Origin: Kribbibacterium absianum | Lineage (GTDB): Bacteria; Actinomycetota; Coriobacteriia; Coriobacteriales; Atopobiaceae | Direction: 5' to 3' | Assembly (NCBI RefSeq): GCF_030067705.1 | Contig: NZ_JASJEX010000001.1 | Span: 124,001 to 188,000 of the forward strand | DNA length: 64,000 bases | Shown here: positions 23,641-58,800 of the stretch, in pieces | Layout: each line of letters begins with the position of its first letter | How positions within the stretch are numbered: position 1 is the stretch's first letter | Program-made: the position numbers and the translations under genes | The notes under the pieces: model-generated | Told to the model about the DNA's origin: nothing | Seen by the model: the letters and a program-made list of their open reading frames with translations, nothing else | The model's database searches: none

Positions 23641-25974
23641 ATGAGCAAGTTCAAGGAGGTCGGACGGCCGCTGGCTCGTGTTGACGCCAAAGACAAGGTC
23701 ACCGGCCGTGCGAAGTATTGTTACGACCTGCTGCCCCAGGACCACCTGGTGGCGAAGATGGTCCTGGCGACCATCGGCAACGGCAAGGTGCTCTCCATCG
23801 ACACCTCCGAGGCCGAGCGCGTGCCGGGCGTCGTCGGCGTTTTCACCTGCTTCGATCCCGAGCTGCCCAAGACGCCCTTCGGCACGGCCGGTCACCCCTG
23901 GTCCTGCGACCCAGGCCACCAGGACATCCAGGACCGTTGGATCCTCACGGACCGCGTCCGCCAGTACGGCGACGTGATCGCGGCCGTCGTGGCGGAGGAC
24001 ACCGTGGCGGCCGACCGCGCCGTGCGCGCCGTGAAGGTGGAGTACGAGGAGTACCCGCTCGAGCTCACGCGCCACGAGGCCGTCGACCATCCAGAGGACT
24101 ACCCGCCCCTCCATGAGGCGCGTCCCAACAACATCATCGCCCACGTCGACAACCGCACCGAGGTCGCCGGCGGCTACGATACCATCGAGGAGATCCTCGA
24201 GGACCCGTCTCTGCACCACACGCACGTCGAGGTCACGACGCCGCGCCAGTCGCAGGCGCACATCGAGCTCTGCCTCTCCTACGCCTACGCCGAGGGCGAC
24301 CGCATCACCGTCGTGAGTTCCACGCAGCTGCCGCACATCTGCCGGCGCATCGTGGCCCAGGCGCTCGAGCGGCCGTGGGGCGACATCCGCGTGATCAAGC
24401 CCTACATCGGCGGTGGCTTCGGCAACAAGCAGGACATCCTCTACGAGCCCCTCAACGCGTGGCTCTGCGAGAAGGTGGGCGGCCGCTGCGTGCTGCTCGA
24501 GCTCACGCGCGAGGAGGTCTTCGCCTACACGCGCTCGCGCCAGCCCAAGGAGTGCCACCTGGACGCCGCCTGGGACGACGACATGAACCTCAAGGCGCGC
24601 AAGCTGGAGGGCTGGTCCAACCAGGGCGCCTACGCCGCCCACGGGCATGCGCTGATGGCGAACACCGCCAACAGCTTCCGCCAGGAGTACTCGGGCGTCG
24701 AGCTGGCGCACCACGGCATCGCGACGACGTTCTACTCCAACGAGACCACGGCCGGCGCCATGCGCGCCTACGGCGTGCCCGAGGGCAACTGGGCGGCCGA
24801 GGTGCTCATGAGCGACATCGCCCATGACATGGGCTGGGACGGCTGCGACTTCCGTCTGAAGAACTTCATGAAGCTCGGCTACCGCGACCCCTTCTGGCCG
24901 GGGCCCCTCTGCTGCTACTCGCGCGGCATCGAGGAGTGCGTGGCCAAGGGCAAGGAGCTCATCGGCTGGGACGAGAAGCAGAAGGCTTACAAGGACCAGA
25001 CCGGGCCCATCCGGCACGGCGTGGGCGTCGCGCTCTTCAGCTACAAGACGTCGGTCGCCGGCCTCTCGCTCGAGACCTCCAACGTGCGCATGAACCTCGC
25101 CCAGGACGGCTCCGTGATGCTGCAGATGGGCGCGACTGAGATCGGCCAGGGCGCGGACACCGTCTTCTCCCAGATGGCGGCCGAGACCATCGGCATCCCG
25201 ACGGAGATGGTGCACATCGTCTCGCAGCAGGACACGGACGTGACGCCCTACGACTCCGGCGCCTACGCGTCCCGCCAGAGCTACGTGGCCGGCACCGCGT
25301 GCAAGAAGGTGGCCGAGGAGCTGCGGCAGGAGATCCTCGACTACGCGCACTTCCTGTTCCCCAAGCAGCAGATGCCCTACGACCTCCGCGACGGCGTGAT
25401 CTATGACATCGCCGGCAACGCCGTGACCACGATCGGCGAGGTGGCCATCCAGGCCTACTACCACCCGACCAACGCGAAGCAGATTCAGGCGCAGGACGGC
25501 ATCAACGTCCAAGAGAACACGTTCGCGATGGGCGCGTGCTTCGTGGACCTCACGGTGGACATCCCGATGGCGACCGTGACCTTGAACAACATCGTGGAGA
25601 TTCACGACTCCGGCACCGTGCTCAACCCCAAGACCGCCGAGCAACAGGTTCACGGCGGCATCGGGCAGTCCGCTGGCATGGCCCTCTCGGAGGAGCTCCT
25701 CACCAACCCCAAGGACGGCTCCATCCGCAACAACAACCTGCTCGACTACAAGATCCCGACGGCCATGGACCTGCCGGACCTCACCGCCGGGTTCGTGGAG
25801 ACGTACGACCCCACCGGCCCCTACGGCAACAAGGCGCTCGGCGAGTGCCCGTGCATACCGGCCGCCCCGGCGATCCGGGACGCCATCCTCAATGCAACCG
25901 GCGTGAAGTTCTACGACGCGCCCATGACCCCTCAGCGGCTGTTCGAGGGATTCAAGAAGGAGGGTTTGATCTAG
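23641..25974 (+). CDS. Xanthine dehydrogenase molybdopterin-binding subunit, copy 1
   Basis: A 777-residue large subunit of a three-subunit molybdenum hydroxylase, oxidising a purine such as hypoxanthine or xanthine. The N-terminus VGRPLARVDAKDKVTGRAKYCYDLLP is the small Mo-subunit domain. Molybdenum-pocket motifs include KPYIGGGFGNKQD (near residue 255), TTAGAMRAYGVPEGNWAAE (near 365), ATEIGQGADTVFSQMA (near 498), QQVHGGIGQSAGMAL and PYGNKALGECPCIPAAPAIRDAI (near 728). It begins the set xdhA1-xdhB-xdhC-xdhA2, all within 0-10 bases or overlapping. It is about two-thirds identical by eye to the protein at 27374 and shares the unusual YEPLNAWLCEKVGGRCVLLE segment. Confidence 0.92.
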   Translation: MSKFKEVGRPLARVDAKDKVTGRAKYCYDLLPQDHLVAKMVLATIGNGKVLSIDTSEAERVPGVVGVFTCFDPELPKTPFGTAGHPWSCDPGHQDIQDRWILTDRVRQYGDVIAAVVAEDTVAADRAVRAVKVEYEEYPLELTRHEAVDHPEDYPPLHEARPNNIIAHVDNRTEVAGGYDTIEEILEDPSLHHTHVEVTTPRQSQAHIELCLSYAYAEGDRITVVSSTQLPHICRRIVAQALERPWGDIRVIKPYIGGGFGNKQDILYEPLNAWLCEKVGGRCVLLELTREEVFAYTRSRQPKECHLDAAWDDDMNLKARKLEGWSNQGAYAAHGHALMANTANSFRQEYSGVELAHHGIATTFYSNETTAGAMRAYGVPEGNWAAEVLMSDIAHDMGWDGCDFRLKNFMKLGYRDPFWPGPLCCYSRGIEECVAKGKELIGWDEKQKAYKDQTGPIRHGVGVALFSYKTSVAGLSLETSNVRMNLAQDGSVMLQMGATEIGQGADTVFSQMAAETIGIPTEMVHIVSQQDTDVTPYDSGAYASRQSYVAGTACKKVAEELRQEILDYAHFLFPKQQMPYDLRDGVIYDIAGNAVTTIGEVAIQAYYHPTNAKQIQAQDGINVQENTFAMGACFVDLTVDIPMATVTLNNIVEIHDSGTVLNPKTAEQQVHGGIGQSAGMALSEELLTNPKDGSIRNNNLLDYKIPTAMDLPDLTAGFVETYDPTGPYGNKALGECPCIPAAPAIRDAILNATGVKFYDAPMTPQRLFEGFKKEGLI

Positions 25975-26868: not shown

Positions 26869-27374
26869 GGATCCTCAGCTGCACCGTCAATGGCAAGCCG
26901 GTCCAGGTGGGCTACGACGTCCGCGAGTGCCTGCTCGACACCCTGCACGACCGGCTCGGCCTCACGTCCGTGAAGCGCGGGTGCGAGGTGGGGGAGTGCG
27001 GCGCCTGCACCGTCCTTATCGACGGCGTGGCCACGGACACCTGTCTCTACCTGACCGCCTGGGCCGAGGGAAAGACCATCGAGACCGTGGAGGGGCTGCA
27101 GGCCCCGGACGGCACGCTCGACGTGGTGCAGCAGGCCTTTGTGGACGAGTTCGCCGTCCAGTGCGGGTTCTGCATCCCGGGCCTCATCATGTCCGCCGAG
27201 GAGATGGTGCGGTCGGGCAAGACCTTCACGCGCGATGAGATCCGCAAGTGCCTGTCCGGCCACCTGTGCCGCTGCACCGGCTACCAGAACATCGTGAACG
27301 CGGTCGAGAAGGCGACCAACCTCGTGAACGGCATGGTGGGTGAGGAGGCAAGCGGGACCGAGGAGGTGGCCTGA
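26859..27374 (+). CDS. Xanthine dehydrogenase [2Fe-2S] subunit
   Basis: A 171-residue protein with two [2Fe-2S] clusters. The plant-ferredoxin-like N-terminal cluster is RGCEVGECGACTVLIDG...DTC (residues about 43-65) and the helical second cluster is QCGFCIPGLIMSA with CRCTGYQNIVNAV (about 105-145). All eight cysteines are present. ATG 26859 overlaps the FAD gene and ATG 26865 is an alternative two codons later. The stop overlaps the start of the second Mo subunit (TGATG), so the Fe-S subunit is probably shared by both large subunits. Confidence 0.92.
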   Translation: MEMRILSCTVNGKPVQVGYDVRECLLDTLHDRLGLTSVKRGCEVGECGACTVLIDGVATDTCLYLTAWAEGKTIETVEGLQAPDGTLDVVQQAFVDEFAVQCGFCIPGLIMSAEEMVRSGKTFTRDEIRKCLSGHLCRCTGYQNIVNAVEKATNLVNGMVGEEASGTEEVA

Positions 27375-29770
27375 TGGCGCTCATCAACCCGGCGCCGCCC
27401 GCCGACTCACTGGCTCCCGAGAGGGCCGGGGCCGCTCGCTTCACGCAGGTCGGCAAACCGGTCACCCGCATCGACGCGGTGGACAAGGTGACGGGGCGCG
27501 CCAAGTTCACGTACGACCTACTGCCCACGGACCATCTCGTGGCCAAGGTGGTGCGCTCCACCATCGCGAGCGGCCGCGTGCTCTCCTTCGATCTGGACGA
27601 GGCGTTGGCCGAGCCCGGTGTGGTGGCGATCTTCACCTGTCTTGACGAGGGGCTGCCCACCTACCAGTTCGCGAGCCCCGGGCACCCGTGGGTCGTGGAC
27701 CCGGAGGAGCGCGGCGACATCGAGGACCGCACGCTCATGGACTCCCGCGTGCGCCAGTACGGCGACACCATCGGCGTGCTTGTGGCCGAGGACACCGTGG
27801 CGGCCGAGCGCGCCCTGCGCAAGATCAAGGTGGAGTACGAGGAATATCCGGTCGTCTTCACCTACGAGCAGTCCCAGGACCCGGACTACGCGCCGCCCAT
27901 CCACGAGGAGTGCCCCAACAACGTCCAGGCGGACTGGCTCACCGAGGTGGGCGTCGAGGAGGCCGGCTACTCGTCGATGGAGGAGCTGCTGCACGACCCG
28001 CAGTACCACAGCGGCAGCTACCACATGAGGACACCGCGCCAGCAGCAGGCGCACATCGAGCTCTGCCTGTCGTTCTGTTACGAGGAGAACGGCCAGATCG
28101 TCTGCGTCACCTCGACGCAGATCCCCCACATCGTGCGCCGCGTGATTGGCCAGGCGCTCGAGATCCCCTGGGGCGACGTGCGCGTGATCAAGCCCTTCGT
28201 GGGCGGCGGCTTCGGCAACAAGCAGGACGTCCTGTACGAGCCGCTCAACGCCTGGGTGTGCCACAAGCTCGGCGGCCGCTGCGTGCTGCTCGAGCTCACC
28301 CGTGAGGAGGTCTTCGAGCAAACCCGCTCCCGGCAGCCGAAGGACTACTACGGCGAGGCCTGCTGGGACGACGACATGAACCTCGTGGCCCGCAGCTGCG
28401 AGGGGTTCTCGAACTCGGGCGGCTACGCGAGCCACGGCCAGGCGATCATCGCCAACGGCCTCGGGTCGTTCCGGTTCATGTACTCGGGGCAGGAGAAGGC
28501 CTGCCGCACCCGGGCGCTCACGTTCTACTCCAACCAGGCCACGGCCGGGGCCATGCGCGCCTACGGCGTGCCCGAGGCGACCTGGGCGGCCGAGTGCATG
28601 GTGAGCGACATCGCCCACGACATGGGCTGGGACGGCGCGGACTTCCGCGCCAAGAACGCCATCAAGCTGGGCTACGAGGACGTCACCTGGCCCGCCCCGC
28701 TCATCTGCCAGTCGAACGGCATCCAAGAGTGCATCGAGCGGGGCCGCGAGCTTATCGGCTGGGACGAGAAGAAACGGCGCTACGCCAACGAGACGGGACC
28801 GGTACGCCATGGCGTGGGCATGTCGCTGCTCTGCTACAAGTGCTCCGTCGGCGGCCTCGAGCTCGAGACGGCGAGCGCGCGCATGACGCTCAACCAGGAC
28901 GGGTCGGTGGTGCTGACGCTCGGCGCGACCGAGATCGGCCAGGGCTGCGACACGGTCATGTGCCAGATGTGCGCCGAGGTGCTGGGCGTCCCGGTGGAGA
29001 AGGTGCACATCGTCAGCACCCAGGACACCAACATCAGCCCCTACGGCGCGGGCGCCTACGCCAGCCGCCAGACGTACGTGACCGGCATGACCATCAAGCA
29101 GGTGGGCGCCGAGTTCAAGGCGAAGATCCTGGACTACGCGCGCTACCTCAAGCCCTACTACAACGGGCAGGACCTCGACATCGCGGACAGTTGGGTGGTC
29201 GACGCGGCCGGGCGTCGGGTGATCAGCCTGGAAGAGCTCTCGACGATCGCCTACTACGACCGCAAGCGCTCCGACCAGATCGAGGCCTCGGGCACCACCG
29301 AGGAGGACGTGAACTCCTTCTGCCTCGGCGCCTGCTTCGTAGACGTGACGGTGGACATACCGATGGCCACCGTGACCGTGAACCAGATCGTCCAAGTGCA
29401 CGACTCCGGGCAGATCATCAACCCCAAGACGGCCGAGCAGCAGGTGCACGGCGGCATCGCGCAGTCGCTCGGCATGGGGCTCTACGAGGAGCTCATCGAG
29501 GACCCCGCGACGGGCAAGACCCGCAACGGAAACCTGCTCGACTACAAGATCCCGACGACGATGGACGTGCCGGACCTGACGGCCGAGTTCGTCGAGACCT
29601 GGGACCCGACGGGGCCCTTTGGCAACAAGTCGCTCGGCGAGCCGCCATGCATCCCGTGCGCGCCGGCCATCCGCGACGCGGTGCTCGACGCGACCGGGGT
29701 GAAGTTCTACGAGGCGCCGATGACGCAGCAGCGCCTCTTCGAAGGCTTCAAGGCCGCCGGGCTCCTGTAG
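27374..29770 (+). CDS. Xanthine dehydrogenase molybdopterin-binding subunit, copy 2
   Basis: A 798-residue paralogue of the subunit at 23641, with the same motif order (KPFVGGGFGNKQD, TAGAMRAYGVPEATWAAE, ATEIGQGCDTVMCQM, QQVHGGIAQSLGMGL, PFGNKSLGEPPCIPCAPAIRDAV). It has a 20-residue N-terminal extension (ALINPAPPADSLAPERAGA) not seen in copy 1. Differences near the active site (GCDTVMCQM against GADTVFSQM, SLGEPPC against ALGECPC) suggest different substrates. The start ATG overlaps the Fe-S gene stop. A transposase element begins 6 bases after the stop codon, so any original downstream operon gene is separated from it. Confidence 0.92.
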   Translation: MALINPAPPADSLAPERAGAARFTQVGKPVTRIDAVDKVTGRAKFTYDLLPTDHLVAKVVRSTIASGRVLSFDLDEALAEPGVVAIFTCLDEGLPTYQFASPGHPWVVDPEERGDIEDRTLMDSRVRQYGDTIGVLVAEDTVAAERALRKIKVEYEEYPVVFTYEQSQDPDYAPPIHEECPNNVQADWLTEVGVEEAGYSSMEELLHDPQYHSGSYHMRTPRQQQAHIELCLSFCYEENGQIVCVTSTQIPHIVRRVIGQALEIPWGDVRVIKPFVGGGFGNKQDVLYEPLNAWVCHKLGGRCVLLELTREEVFEQTRSRQPKDYYGEACWDDDMNLVARSCEGFSNSGGYASHGQAIIANGLGSFRFMYSGQEKACRTRALTFYSNQATAGAMRAYGVPEATWAAECMVSDIAHDMGWDGADFRAKNAIKLGYEDVTWPAPLICQSNGIQECIERGRELIGWDEKKRRYANETGPVRHGVGMSLLCYKCSVGGLELETASARMTLNQDGSVVLTLGATEIGQGCDTVMCQMCAEVLGVPVEKVHIVSTQDTNISPYGAGAYASRQTYVTGMTIKQVGAEFKAKILDYARYLKPYYNGQDLDIADSWVVDAAGRRVISLEELSTIAYYDRKRSDQIEASGTTEEDVNSFCLGACFVDVTVDIPMATVTVNQIVQVHDSGQIINPKTAEQQVHGGIAQSLGMGLYEELIEDPATGKTRNGNLLDYKIPTTMDVPDLTAEFVETWDPTGPFGNKSLGEPPCIPCAPAIRDAVLDATGVKFYEAPMTQQRLFEGFKAAGLL

Positions 29771-29776
29771 CACCCA

Positions 29777-29845
29777 CCCTCCTGGGGTGCCACGCACCCC
29801 AGGAGGTTTCCTCCCGAGGTGCCACGCATCCCAGGAGGTTGCGTG
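29777..29845 (+). repeat. Left inverted end of the RAYT element
   Basis: 69 bases with two tandem 23-nt units; five mismatches to the reverse complement of 30712-30780. Confidence 0.8.
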
Positions 29846-29955
29846 TTGTACGTGTTGCGATTCATGGCGATTTTCCGAAATCTGAAACGCTGTCGAAATA
29901 GAGGGACACTACCGGTACCATCAACCCTCACTCCAGGTGTCGGGAGGAGGGACCC

Positions 29956-30709
29956 ATGGGCAGGAAACCTGCGGCGTTGTCCAACAGCGGCGTGTACCAC
30001 ATCGTGTTCAAAGGCGCGAACGCCCAGGACATCTTCTACGGCGACGACGACCGCCTCGAGTTCCTCAGCCGCCTCCAATGGGTCCTTGGCAAGTACAACG
30101 CCTCGGCCCTCGCATGGGCGCTCATGGACAACCACGTGCACCTGGTGCTCGACTGCGGGACAACCGATCCGGCACTGCTCCAGCACGACCTCGCGGGCCC
30201 CTACGCCCGGTCGTTCAACCTCCGCTACGGGCGCGTGGATCCGTTGTTCGCAGAGCGGCCGTTTCGAGAGGGGGTCGAGGACCAGTCGTACCTGTACGCG
30301 GTCGTCCGCTACGTGCACTGGAACCGGGCGGTGGCGGGCCTCGCTGCAGGTCTCGAGGACCGTTGGACGAGCTATCGCGAGGTCCTCGCCGGGGAGGGCA
30401 TTGTCGACGTCGCGCGCCTCTTGGACGTCTTTGGGTGCGTCGAGGAGTTCGTTCGTTTCCACGAGTCTGGGCTTGGCGGCCACGACGCGCCCTTGGCGCG
30501 GTCGGACCAAGGGCTGCTCACCGACGAGCAGCTCATTCGTTACCACGAACGTCGGTGGGGGGGGGGAGAGCTTCGCGACGGCGGTCCGGTGGACGAAAGC
30601 CGAGCGGGACGAACGCATTCGCGAGCTGAAGAGGATCGGCGCGCTCAACAAGCAGCTGCAGCGGGTCACGGGGTTGAGCGAGTACAAGGTGAAGTCGGTG
30701 CGCCTATAA
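29956..30709 (+). pseudogene. REP-associated tyrosine transposase (Y1_Tnp) interrupted by a 10-G tract
   Basis: The N-terminal 200 residues are a Y1 (HUH) transposase of the REP-associated type: SNSGVYHIVFKGAN, the HUH-type ALMDNHVHLVL near residue 57, and YLYAVVRYVHWNRAVAGL near 114. At 30557-30566 there is a run of ten G. Read straight through, the frame continues to 30726 with a C-terminus unlike the family. With one G fewer it joins ESFATAVRWTKAERDERIRELKRIGALNK and TGLSEYKVKSVRL, the expected Chr/HTH-like tail, ending at 30709. So it is either inactivated or switchable by slippage. ATG 29956 follows GGAGGAGGG. Confidence 0.8.
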
Positions 30710-30711
30710 GA

Positions 30712-30780
30712 CACGCAACCTCCTGAGGTGCGTGGCACCTGGGGAGGAAACCTCCTCGGGTGCGTGGCACCACAGGAGGG
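30712..30780 (-). repeat. Right inverted end of the RAYT element
   Basis: Reverse-complement partner of 29777-29845 (64 of 69 positions match). It begins three bases after the transposase stop. Confidence 0.8.
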
Positions 30781-31105
30781 AGGGGCAGATGGTTGCGAGT
30801 CGTTAGGTGGCTCAGAGAATAACCCGACAAACATCGGGATTATCGGCCTGAAGCGCAAACGATGCCGTTTCCAAGATGATGCCGTTCGTCCCTGCTTTCC
30901 TCTCGTTGACCGGACGGATGGTCAGGCGGCCTCACTTTTTGTCTCCAGTGAGATTTCGGAACGACTAAAGTGACGCAGCAAGGGGAGTCCCCTGAGTCCC
31001 GACGAGTAGAATTCACCGGACACAGAGGGTCCACAAGCCCAACGCGCGCTTTAGCAGCAAGACAGCACCTCCTGGCTCTTTCAAAGGCACAGAAAGGCGG
31101 TCTCT
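30781..31105. promoter_or_regulatory. Upstream region of the nucleoside ABC transporter operon
   Basis: 325 bases without a gene. It contains the ACAAAAAGT motif on the minus strand (30934-30942) and an inverted repeat CTCACT...AGTGAG (30931-30936 with 30947-30952). A TTGTCT at 30939 could be a -35 element but no well-spaced -10 is clear. The RBS AGAAAGGCGG is at 31091-31100. Confidence 0.5.
30930..30947 (-). promoter_or_regulatory. Candidate purine-regulon operator before the ABC transporter
   Basis: On the minus strand it reads GAGACAAAAAGTGAGGC, sharing GACAAAAAGT and AGG with the ssnA site. The inverted symmetry is poor here (only the inner AC/GT pair), but it lies inside the CTCACT/AGTGAG repeat. 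Confidence 0.4.
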
Positions 31106-32614
31106 ATGGCGGAAATGCTCAGGATGGAGGGGATCAGCAAACAGTTCGGGACGTTCTTCGCCAACCACGATGTCAACCTCGACATCCAAGAGGGCGAGGT
31201 CCACACGCTGCTCGGTGAGAACGGCGCGGGGAAGTCCACCCTGATGAACGTGCTGATCGGTCTCTACCAGCCCACTGCGGGCAAGATCCTCTGGCGCGGG
31301 AAGGAGGAGCGGATCTCGAGCCCCGCGCGCGCCGTGGAGCTGGGCATCGGCATGGTGCACCAGCACTTCATGCTCATCGAGGCCATGACCGGCTTCGAGA
31401 ACATCATTCTCGGCTCCAAGGTCAACCCCTCCTTCACCATCCAGGAGTCCAAGGACAAGAAGAAGATCCAAGAGCTCATGGACCGCTACGGCCTCGAGGT
31501 GGACCTCGACGTCCCTGTGGGCGAGATGTCCATCGGCATGCAGCAGCGCGTGGAGATCCTCAAGGTCCTCTACCGCGGCGCCGAGCTGCTGATCCTCGAC
31601 GAGCCCACGGCCGTCCTCACGGACCAGGAGGTGGAGGGCCTCTTCGACATCATGCGCTCCCTCACCAGCGAGGGGAAGTCCGTGATCTTCATCTCCCACA
31701 AGATGCGCGAGGTCACAAAGATCTCGGACCGCGTCACGGTGCTCCGCGCCGGTGAGTCCGTTGAGACCCTCAAGATGTCCGAGACCAACGGCCAGGAGCT
31801 CTCGGACCTCATGATCGGGCACCGGTTCGTCGAGAGCGTCTACGACAAGGTGGTCGCGGCGGACAAGCCCATGCTCGAGCTCAAGGGCGTCTCGTACCAC
31901 CCGAACGAGAAGCACGGCGGCCTCAAGGACGTCACGCTCACCGTCAACGCCGGCGAGGTCCTCGGCGTCGCGGGCATCGACGGCAACGGCCAGTCCCAGC
32001 TCGCGGCCCTCATCGCCGGCCTCATCGCGCCCGAAGAGGGCGAGGTCTGGCGCAACGGCCAGCGCGTCTCCATCTACAGCCCCGACGACTTCATCGAGAA
32101 CGGCCTCGCTGACATCCCCGAGGACCGCAACAAGATGGGCCTCGTCGGCGACATGACCGTGGCCCAGAACCTCATCCTCAAGGAGACCACCTCCGACAAG
32201 TTCTCCTACGGCCATGGCCTGTGGCTCAAGACGGGCGCCATCCAGGAGTACGCGAACGAGAAGAAGCAAGAGAACGACATCCGCTGCACCTCGGTCAACC
32301 AGACGGTGCGCAGTCTGTCCGGCGGCAACCAGCAGAAGGTCATCCTGGCCCGTGAGCTGGAGGGCAACCCGCCGATCCTCATCGCGGTGTACCCCACCCG
32401 CGGCCTCGACATCGGTGCCACGAACTTCATCCATGACCGCGTGATCGCCGCCCGAGACGGAGGCTGCGCGGTGATCCTCATCAGCGCGGACTTCGACGAG
32501 GTGCTCAAGCTGTCGGACCGCATCGTCGTCCTGTTCGAGGGCCAGGTCATGGGCGAGTACCCCGGGGTCAACCCTCCCATCGACCAGATCTCGCTCGCTA
32601 TGGCCGGCAAATAG
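31106..32614 (+). CDS. Nucleoside ABC transporter ATP-binding protein (two ATPase domains)
   Basis: A 502-residue cytoplasmic ATPase with two ABC domains, as in NupO/YufO and sugar transporters. Domain 1 has Walker A LLGENGAGKSTLMN (near residue 36), signature MSIGMQQRVEILK and Walker B LLILDEPTAVLTDQE. Domain 2 has the relaxed Walker A GVAGIDGNGQSQL (near 288), signature SLSGGNQQKVILAREL and the degenerate Walker B LIAVYPTRGLDIGA (Tyr-Pro in place of Asp-Glu), which is normal in this family. It powers the two permeases encoded next and works with the BMP lipoprotein at 34886. The likely cargo is purine nucleosides or bases, given the neighbours. Confidence 0.92.
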   Translation: MAEMLRMEGISKQFGTFFANHDVNLDIQEGEVHTLLGENGAGKSTLMNVLIGLYQPTAGKILWRGKEERISSPARAVELGIGMVHQHFMLIEAMTGFENIILGSKVNPSFTIQESKDKKKIQELMDRYGLEVDLDVPVGEMSIGMQQRVEILKVLYRGAELLILDEPTAVLTDQEVEGLFDIMRSLTSEGKSVIFISHKMREVTKISDRVTVLRAGESVETLKMSETNGQELSDLMIGHRFVESVYDKVVAADKPMLELKGVSYHPNEKHGGLKDVTLTVNAGEVLGVAGIDGNGQSQLAALIAGLIAPEEGEVWRNGQRVSIYSPDDFIENGLADIPEDRNKMGLVGDMTVAQNLILKETTSDKFSYGHGLWLKTGAIQEYANEKKQENDIRCTSVNQTVRSLSGGNQQKVILARELEGNPPILIAVYPTRGLDIGATNFIHDRVIAARDGGCAVILISADFDEVLKLSDRIVVLFEGQVMGEYPGVNPPIDQISLAMAGK

Positions 32615-46865: not shown

Positions 46866-46894
46866 GTGCAAAAGGGGACTGTCCCCTTTTGCAC
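46866..46894. repeat. Perfect 29-nt palindrome after the toxin gene
   Basis: Arms GTGCAAAAGGGGAC and its complement around a single T, then ACGTCCCCTTTTTT. It starts 7 bases behind the toxin stop and probably acts as a terminator. Confidence 0.75.
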
Positions 46895-47781: not shown

Positions 47782-48166
47782 AGGTGCTTCCCCTCGTTGT
47801 ATGCGACAAAACCCGAGCGAACCGCGTCACAAGGCTCGGGCGCGTCAAATGAAGCGTAGGCCATCGCAGTCGAGGAGCCCCAGGCCAGCTGGGCCTCTCT
47901 GTGGAGCGGTCGTGCATAACCAACGAAACCGCCCGCCGAAATGCTCCGTCTCCATTGTCAGCGGCAATGTGCAAAAGGGGACTGTCCCTTTTTGCACATG
48001 CTCTCTTGAATCAAACTGAATTACTTGGAAGTTTCATGGAAGTGGCAGCGCCGTAAGCGTGTCCCTTACATCGCGTTACCGAAACACCCAGGCAACCAGT
48101 TGCGAGCATTCTCCCAGCTAGCGGCGCTAGCAGCGGGGCCGGCGCCACGAGCGTGAGGAGGATGCC
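47782..48166. other. Intergenic region before amtB
   Basis: 385 bases containing a 29-nt palindrome (47969-47997) and otherwise no recognisable gene. The amtB RBS (GTGAGGAGG at 48153-48161) is at the end. No clear promoter pair was found. Confidence 0.5.
47969..47997. repeat. 29-nt palindrome, second copy
   Basis: Same unit as 46866-46894 with one changed base in the right arm. Confidence 0.7.
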
Positions 48167-49798: not shown

Positions 49799-49875
49799 GG
49801 ACGCTTCGGAGAGAGCCATTTGTCCACGCTCCGACTAGCTGGAGCGTGGACAATTCGCTTTGACCGAAGCGTCCA
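49799..49875. repeat. 35-nt REP repeat, inverted pair left of RAYT 2
   Basis: Two units face each other (49799-49832 inverted, 49841-49875 direct) with an 8-nt gap. Consensus core GTGGACAA....GCT...CCGAAGCGTCC. Such inverted doublets of REP units are called REPINs when they move with a RAYT transposase. Confidence 0.8.
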
Positions 49876-49880
49876 GAACG

Positions 49881-50642
49881 TTAGGCTGCCTCCCTCAGAA
49901 GCTCAGCGCTCAGGCTCTTTGACACCCCGGTGACCAGCCCGATCTGTCGGCAGGACAGGCCGGCCTCTGCCAGGGACTGGAGCGCTGCGGCGCGCTCGAC
50001 CCTCGGCAGCCCCATGACCTGAAGAGGCTCGAGGGGGAACAGCGCGAGGCGGGCGCGCTCGAGCACCTCTGCAAGGGGCGCTTGGCGCAGCGACCCCTCG
50101 AGCTTGAGGCAGCTCGGGTCCGTCTCGTCCCTCCAGTGCATCGCGAGGAAGTTCTCCAGGGAGCCCGCCATCTCCAAGATCGGGCGCGTGTCGCAGATGA
50201 ACCCGCCGTTGAGGTACTCGTCGAAGCTGCTCCACCGGTACGAGAGGCCGTCCGTGAGGCCTCCGGCCAAGGGGTTCCGGTGCACGTAGACCACGGTTGC
50301 CAGCAGCTGCTCGTCGGACGTGAGCTCCACGCGCTTGAACGGCCCTTGGAACAGGTGGCCTGAGCGTTCGTAGCGTTGGTTGAACTCGAACGCGTACGTG
50401 GAGTCGGCCCACTGCATCGCGCGGCTGATGTTAGTGCGGGGCCCCGTCACAACCCAGTGGGAGTGGTTGTCCATCAGAGCCCAGCAAAGGATCGAGCAGT
50501 CGCGCTTGGCCATCGCGCCGTGCACGAAATCCAAGTATCGGGCGCGGTCGTCGTCCTTCTCAAAAAGGATGTGCTTGCCGACCCCGCGCGTCATGATGTG
50601 CAGGAAAGCGGGGTCGTTCGCGGTGTCGGTTCTGATGCGCAT
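49881..50642 (-). CDS. REP-associated tyrosine transposase (RAYT 2)
   Basis: A 253-residue single-strand DNA transposase of the Y1_Tnp/HUH class. Motifs: AFLHIMTRGVGKHILFEKDDDR (residues about 14-35), the metal-binding ALMDNHSHWVVTG near 54, and LLATVVYVHRNPLAGGLTDG near 114 with the candidate catalytic Tyr. The C-terminal part (AALQSLAEAGLSCRQIGLVTGVSKSLSAELLREA) is a helix-turn-helix. ATG 50642 is preceded by AAAGGAGG, so the start is firm. It is flanked on both sides by its probable substrate repeats (49799-49875 and 50799-50866). It appears intact. Confidence 0.85.
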   Translation of the reverse strand: MRIRTDTANDPAFLHIMTRGVGKHILFEKDDDRARYLDFVHGAMAKRDCSILCWALMDNHSHWVVTGPRTNISRAMQWADSTYAFEFNQRYERSGHLFQGPFKRVELTSDEQLLATVVYVHRNPLAGGLTDGLSYRWSSFDEYLNGGFICDTRPILEMAGSLENFLAMHWRDETDPSCLKLEGSLRQAPLAEVLERARLALFPLEPLQVMGLPRVERAAALQSLAEAGLSCRQIGLVTGVSKSLSAELLREAA

Positions 50643-50964
50643 GGCAGCCTCCTTTGATGAGGGTGCCGTGCGTCTGAGATGCGGTTGAGGTCGGACACCC
50701 GTGACGAGGGTGCGGACAGTGATTCGACCATTGTGGACAGCGGAGCGCGCGAGGCCCCTGAAACGAAGGGACTTCAGGAACTCTGCAGAAGATGTTCGGG
50801 AGCGTGGACAAACGGCTCTCTCCGAAGCGTCCAACCGTGGACAAACGGCTCTCTCCGAAGCGTCCGCGGGCCGACGCACCCCGTTGCCCTTTCGAGGCCC
50901 CGTCCCTCGATTTGTGCCGTGCTAGGATGGGCGCGTCCTGAACGTGTTCCCTAAGGAGAGTTTC
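50643..50964. other. Intergenic region between RAYT 2 and ridA
   Basis: 322 bases holding the two direct REP units (50799-50866) and the ridA RBS (AAGGAG at 50953-50958). No other gene is visible. Confidence 0.5.
50799..50866 (+). repeat. 35-nt REP repeat, two tandem units right of RAYT 2
   Basis: Units at 50799-50833 and about 50836-50866 read GGACAAACGGCTCTCTCCGA and are nearly identical, in direct orientation. Confidence 0.8.
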
Positions 50965-54174: not shown

Positions 54175-54250
54175 GAGCGTGGACAATTCGCTTTGACCGA
54201 AGCGTCCACACGACCGAGCGTGGACAAATGGCTTTGACCGAAGCGTCCAC
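54175..54250 (+). repeat. 35-nt REP repeat, two direct units
   Basis: Units at 54175-54209 and 54216-54250, 41-base period, 32 of 35 positions identical by eye, between the tautomerase and carboxypeptidase genes. Confidence 0.85.
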
Positions 54251-55706: not shown

Positions 55707-55735
55707 GTGAATTTAGGGACAGTCCCTTTTTGCAC
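55707..55735. repeat. Decayed 29-nt palindrome after the carboxypeptidase gene
   Basis: The right arm GTCCCTTTTTGCAC is intact and the left arm has several changes compared with 46866-46894. It starts 3 bases after the stop. Confidence 0.55.
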
Positions 55736-58689: not shown

Positions 58690-58800
58690 TGGACGCTTCG
58701 GTCAAAGCGATTTGTCCACGCTGCAGCCGAGTGAAGCGTGGACGATCGGCTCTGACCCAAGCGTCCAACCGTGGACAATGGGCTCTGACCCAAGCGTTCA
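58690..58800. repeat. 35-nt REP repeat, three units
   Basis: One inverted (58690-58722) and two direct units (58735-58767, 58768-58800) upstream of the MocA-HTH gene. The direct units have the variant GACCCAAGCGT. Confidence 0.8.

Follow-up and report, generated by a model that had tools for sequence, protein, structure and literature searches.

The 64,000-nucleotide stretch of DNA analysed here (the window) very probably carries a unit of the TIRYT/RAYT type (a TIRtron or REPtron), with a Y1 transposase gene between inverted double-palindrome ends, whose doublets have spread non-autonomously and which has itself settled behind xdhD, a xanthine dehydrogenase-like gene. The window is part of contig C1; the genome measures 2.18 Mb and comprises 7 contigs. 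The element and its neighbours comprise the following features:

27374..29770, + strand: upstream gene, molybdopterin-binding xanthine dehydrogenase-like subunit (xdhD), from Pfam; stop 7 nt before the first unit
29773..29846, + strand: left terminal inverted repeat, 74 nt, two 29-nt units in tandem (29778-29806 and 29810-29838)
29956..30566, + strand: Y1 (HUH) transposase, catalytic part, from Pfam Y1_Tnp; NHVH (N59, H60, H62) and Y119 from alignment
30557..30566, + strand: G10 tract where the frame is lost; the sole G/C run of at least 8 in the DNA examined
30560..30709, + strand: conserved transposase C-terminal segment in the other frame, from the relatives' profile; TAA at 30707-30709
30711..30784, - strand: right terminal inverted repeat, 74 nt, units 30719-30747 and 30751-30779
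31106..32614, + strand: downstream gene, ABC transporter ATPase, from Pfam; a conserved neighbour, used for finding empty sites

Ends of the element and the transposase gene

The first-pass annotation had described 69-base inverted ends (29777-29845 and 30712-30780), and these do match at 64 of 69 positions; the full 74-nt arms match in inverted orientation at 68 of 74. The inverted-repeat extension score of the element was 56, compared with at most 11 in 20 shuffles. Each end had also been read as two tandem 23-nt units, but a unit scan rejected this length. Each arm instead consists of two near-palindromes of 29 nt (unit CCTCCnnnGGTGCCACGCACCnnnGGAGG) separated by a fixed 3-nt linker, giving a period of 32 nt.

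As single-stranded DNA, both arms fold better than all 200 of their shuffles (z of -5.6 for the left arm and -6.8 for the right). Such folding would suit an alternative that we regard as improbable, in which selection maintains the doublets as ordinary 3'-end hairpins (as terminators or to protect mRNA), with two of them merely carried by the transposase gene. However, a terminator scan of both ends gave no match, and the four end units pair at just 10-13 of 13 stem positions. The doublet family also conserves more than pairing needs, namely the unit sequence, including a central CAC, and the linker length.

A single Y1 gene lies between the ends, as had been proposed (Pfam Y1_Tnp, 29.2 bits; cut-off 23). 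N59, H60 and Y119 are invariant across 9 aligned proteins, while the Y motif is Y-VHW-N-R and not Y---NP, with NR replacing NP. The best named protein relative (L049) is 37% identical, a weak pointer to an organism that probably belongs in or close to the Eggerthellaceae. The protein falls below the cut-off of the NCBIfam model NF047646 REP_Tyr_transpos (31 bits vs 80), and a PDB search with it returned 0 matches. Pfam likewise gave 0 matches for the C-terminal piece, which thus has no Pfam HTH.

The ATG frame stays open over 29956-30726, and its last part is unlike the family. The conserved C-terminal segment scores 25.1 bits against the relatives' profile (hmmsearch) in the other frame and -1.2 bits in the ATG frame, and the two frames meet at 30557-30566; the gene therefore appears to lose its frame in a stretch of ten Gs. 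A second run of at least 8 Gs or Cs was not found, whether in the window, in some 272 kb of further loci from the same genome (partly overlapping) or in the loci of 29 relatives. The frame break may mean that the gene is dead, that it can be switched or that the sequence contains an error. As the C-terminus is out of frame at this tract, the transposase system is probably now inactive, or only intermittently active. We think it unlikely that the tract is a contingency switch, in which slippage would toggle the C-terminal part of the transposase and some of the cells would show bursts of doublet spread behind stop codons. A literature search for tyrosine transposases with homopolymer phase variation found nothing.

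Dispersed doublets and the insertion site

The first-pass annotation had suggested looking for solo units in the genome, and they are present. Outside the element, the doublet occurs at 16 solo places with 33 units, which together with the four units in the arms makes 37. Of the 16 places, 14 are doublets (7 tandem and 7 inverted, the latter 6 FR and 1 RF), one is a triplet and one a single unit; one of the 14 doublets has an extra single unit 20 nt away. The linker is 3 nt inside every doublet. A further listed unit, the 38th (C2:422201, 5 mismatches), was a chance match and was removed. GTAG occurs in only one of 36 outer 14-nt flanks of the units, and there it belongs to the stop region of xdhD.

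The similarity between two of the solo doublets (C2:428088 and C2:449359) extends to about 31 nt of sequence beyond the doublet, as though flanking DNA had been copied along or duplicated DNA lay alongside. Doublet-family units also stand beside units of a second repeat family (L038, below) in mixed clusters at C3:122512-122917 and C3:127706.

The doublet family is restricted to this lineage: it is present in 1 of 140 genomes of the taxonomic family, its own, and was not found in the other 139, none of which belongs to the same genus. This absence is a further point against ordinary 3'-end hairpins.

The start of the element had been placed 6 bases past the upstream stop, which agrees with the TAG at 29768-29770. 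We compared 27 relatives' loci around the ATPase gene, all from other genera. Two of these (G020 and G022) have an unoccupied site: the xdhD orthologue is followed by a gap of 221 nt in G020 and 226 nt in G022, then by the ATPase gene (82% and 81%, respectively), and the transposase is absent. Their xdhD genes are 73-74% identical to the upstream gene, while the remaining ATPase loci have distant molybdoenzyme relatives upstream (23-26%) or none. The host part of the gap in our genome (7 + 321 nt) aligns to the gaps of G020 and G022 over 12-27 nt beside the ATPase gene only; the exact junction is unreadable because the relatives' intergenic DNA has diverged. In the window, 25012-25956 is a tandem paralogue of the xdh-like subunit, with 72% DNA identity to the end of 27374-29770.

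Judging from these comparisons, the element most likely inserted behind xdhD in this lineage, in line with the earlier suggestion that it had entered this region. The first-pass annotation would have taken it as immobile if all relatives shared it at this place and no other copies existed; both the insertion and the spread of the ends have support, since two relatives lack the element and the doublet is found at 16 other places. The annotation had also held that the element divides an operon from the transporter, a reading that the relatives do not support, as the two genes are already 221-226 nt apart in G020 and G022.

Could the element instead be ancestral here and lost from the relatives? 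The compared genomes are of other genera, which leaves room for such a history, but both relatives that keep the gene pair do so without the element, and both also lack the repeat family. We consider this decidedly unlikely. A classical IS200-like insertion sequence, moving as a whole 1-kb unit, would equally have a gene between inverted ends and be missing from the site in two relatives. However, there is one full-length copy in the genome, and the other copies are ends alone. In addition, by its length and putative C-terminal extension the protein comes nearer to TnpA-Y1 subclass 2.1 (median 238 aa) than to the IS200 transposases (152 aa), going by Table 1 of Quentin et al. (2018, PMC6006769), and an IS200-like origin is very improbable. 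As the full unit is present once, its movement as a whole, as distinct from that of its ends, is inferred only from comparing the occupied site with the empty ones.

Under the preferred reading of a TIRYT/RAYT-type unit, the transposase would most likely have bound and cut the single-stranded hairpins of the ends, and could have pasted the doublet elsewhere by strand transfer. In this way, we propose, the doublet with its 32-nt period would have reached at least 16 places as a non-autonomous unit, most of them immediately after stop codons. The transposase-bearing copy itself would have settled behind xdhD in this lineage, although the order of these events is one that we infer.

Other Y1 genes and known systems

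The genome contains six Y1 genes, and a protein match to the transposase was found in 83 of 140 genomes of the taxonomic family, its own included. We surveyed 35 loci, 29 from relatives (out of many more matches) and six from this genome. Inverted terminal repeats were found at 32 of the 35 (an earlier, narrower test had given 30 of 34) and not at L039, L092 and L099. At least two units stand at both ends in 9 of the 32 loci with inverted ends, including this element, L038 and L107. The view that long, paired terminal copies are unusual for such genes therefore does not hold among these loci, and such ends are known from the RAYT and TIRYT literature.

The other RAYTs of the genome have different repeat families, two of which are shown to be dispersed: in the loci examined, the L038 family (family 2) occupies at least 48 merged places and the L041 family (family 3) at least 41. 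At least three of the six Y1 genes thus have their own dispersed repeat family. The L038 gene, a second RAYT-type gene, lies in the window itself (49799-50865, - strand) and has its own double-unit inverted ends. The window also holds solo copies of the L038 family (54178-54248 and 58691-58799) and of the L041 family (46866-46894, 47969-47997 and 55707-55735). The sixth Y1 gene (L107:1499-2251) has inverted doublets as ends; its HUH motif looks degenerate, reading NHTD in place of the N-H-x-H of the others.

TIRYTs are described as RAYT-like genes bounded by long terminal inverted repeats, and copies of these repeats occur in the genome as dimers and clusters (Di Nocera et al., 2013, PMC3733652). 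The element agrees with this description in its RAYT-like gene between terminal inverted repeats unrelated to GTAG REPs, in its dimeric or clustered genomic copies, and in the presence of several different such genes in one genome. It differs in the frame break at G10 and in its units, which lack the GGGGWSAS motif that is frequent, though not universal, in TIRYT repeats; this motif is present in many relatives' repeats and in family 3 of this genome.

Subclass 2.1 of TnpA-Y1 probably corresponds to the TIRYTs (Quentin et al., 2018, PMC6006769), and the element shares its NHVH motif, low copy number and distant paralogues within a genome. A C-terminal HTH-like extension, as in the subclass, may also be present: the C-terminal segment matches the relatives' profile, but has no Pfam HTH and is out of frame. 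In that paper's account of the subclass, no REP-like sequences were found near the genes, whereas here the ends are palindromic and dispersed in the genome. Our data thus bear on the printed statement that subclass 2.1 genes lack REP-like repeats nearby.

By the definition of Nunvar et al. (2010, PMC2817692), every RAYT stands between two inverted REPs, and this transposase gene is likewise flanked by inverted palindromes. As described for REPINs (Bertels and Rainey, 2011, PMC3116915), the doublet is the probable replicative unit and each RAYT has its own repeat family. However, the element has no GTAG foot and has a 3-nt linker. Of the 14 solo doublets, 7 are inverted, the orientation of REPIN doublets, and 7 are tandem. 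With IS200/IS605 elements it shares the Y1 HUH catalytic domain, but here the full unit is single-copy, the protein longer, and the ends long and symmetrical.

The element has the main TIRYT features and is another member of the RAYT/TIRYT kind, without GGGGWSAS or a GTAG foot. It adds a well-populated case, probably outside the proteobacteria, with six genes in one 2.2-Mb genome. A literature search for RAYTs in Eggerthella found nothing.

Placement beside stop codons

An initial count put 13 of 17 doublet-family places within 12 nt of a gene stop. This placement is the other point in favour of ordinary 3'-end hairpins, and it persists when the length of the intergenic gap is controlled for. 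When insertion positions were drawn at random within the intergenic gap of each place, 4.0 of the 15 usable places were expected to have a stop within 13 nt, and 11 were observed (P 2e-6; 3 of 18 places were left out). The same control gave 20 of 48 places near a stop for the L038 family (8.2 expected) and 24 of 39 for the L041 family (14.9 expected; 2 of 41 skipped). All three repeat families adjoin stop codons more often than chance predicts.

These stop distances are approximate, as the genes were called by a codon-usage caller trained on five genes of the window; it recovered its five training genes, one with a shifted start. Because the gene calls may miss genes, the length-controlled test took the place of a simpler noncoding control (6.5% and 4.0% of placements). 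An apparent difference in stop distance between family 2 (1/29) and families 1 and 3 (13/17) was an artefact of BLAST hit borders, which scanning for units and controlling for intergenic length removed.

Di Nocera et al. (2013, PMC3733652) already report that GTAG REPs often provide a stop codon through their termini, which makes the present findings on stop codons an extension rather than a first observation. Together with the G10 break, the stop-codon bias of three families offers concrete tests of how repeats choose their sites and how the transposase is controlled.

Nine places of the L041 family are at distance 1 from the stop, a TGA that overlaps the unit's conserved GAT foot, and 5 places use a TAG inside the unit as the stop. 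At C1:37692, C2:65102 and C2:424780, for example, the predicted gene frames run into the unit and stop at its internal TAG.
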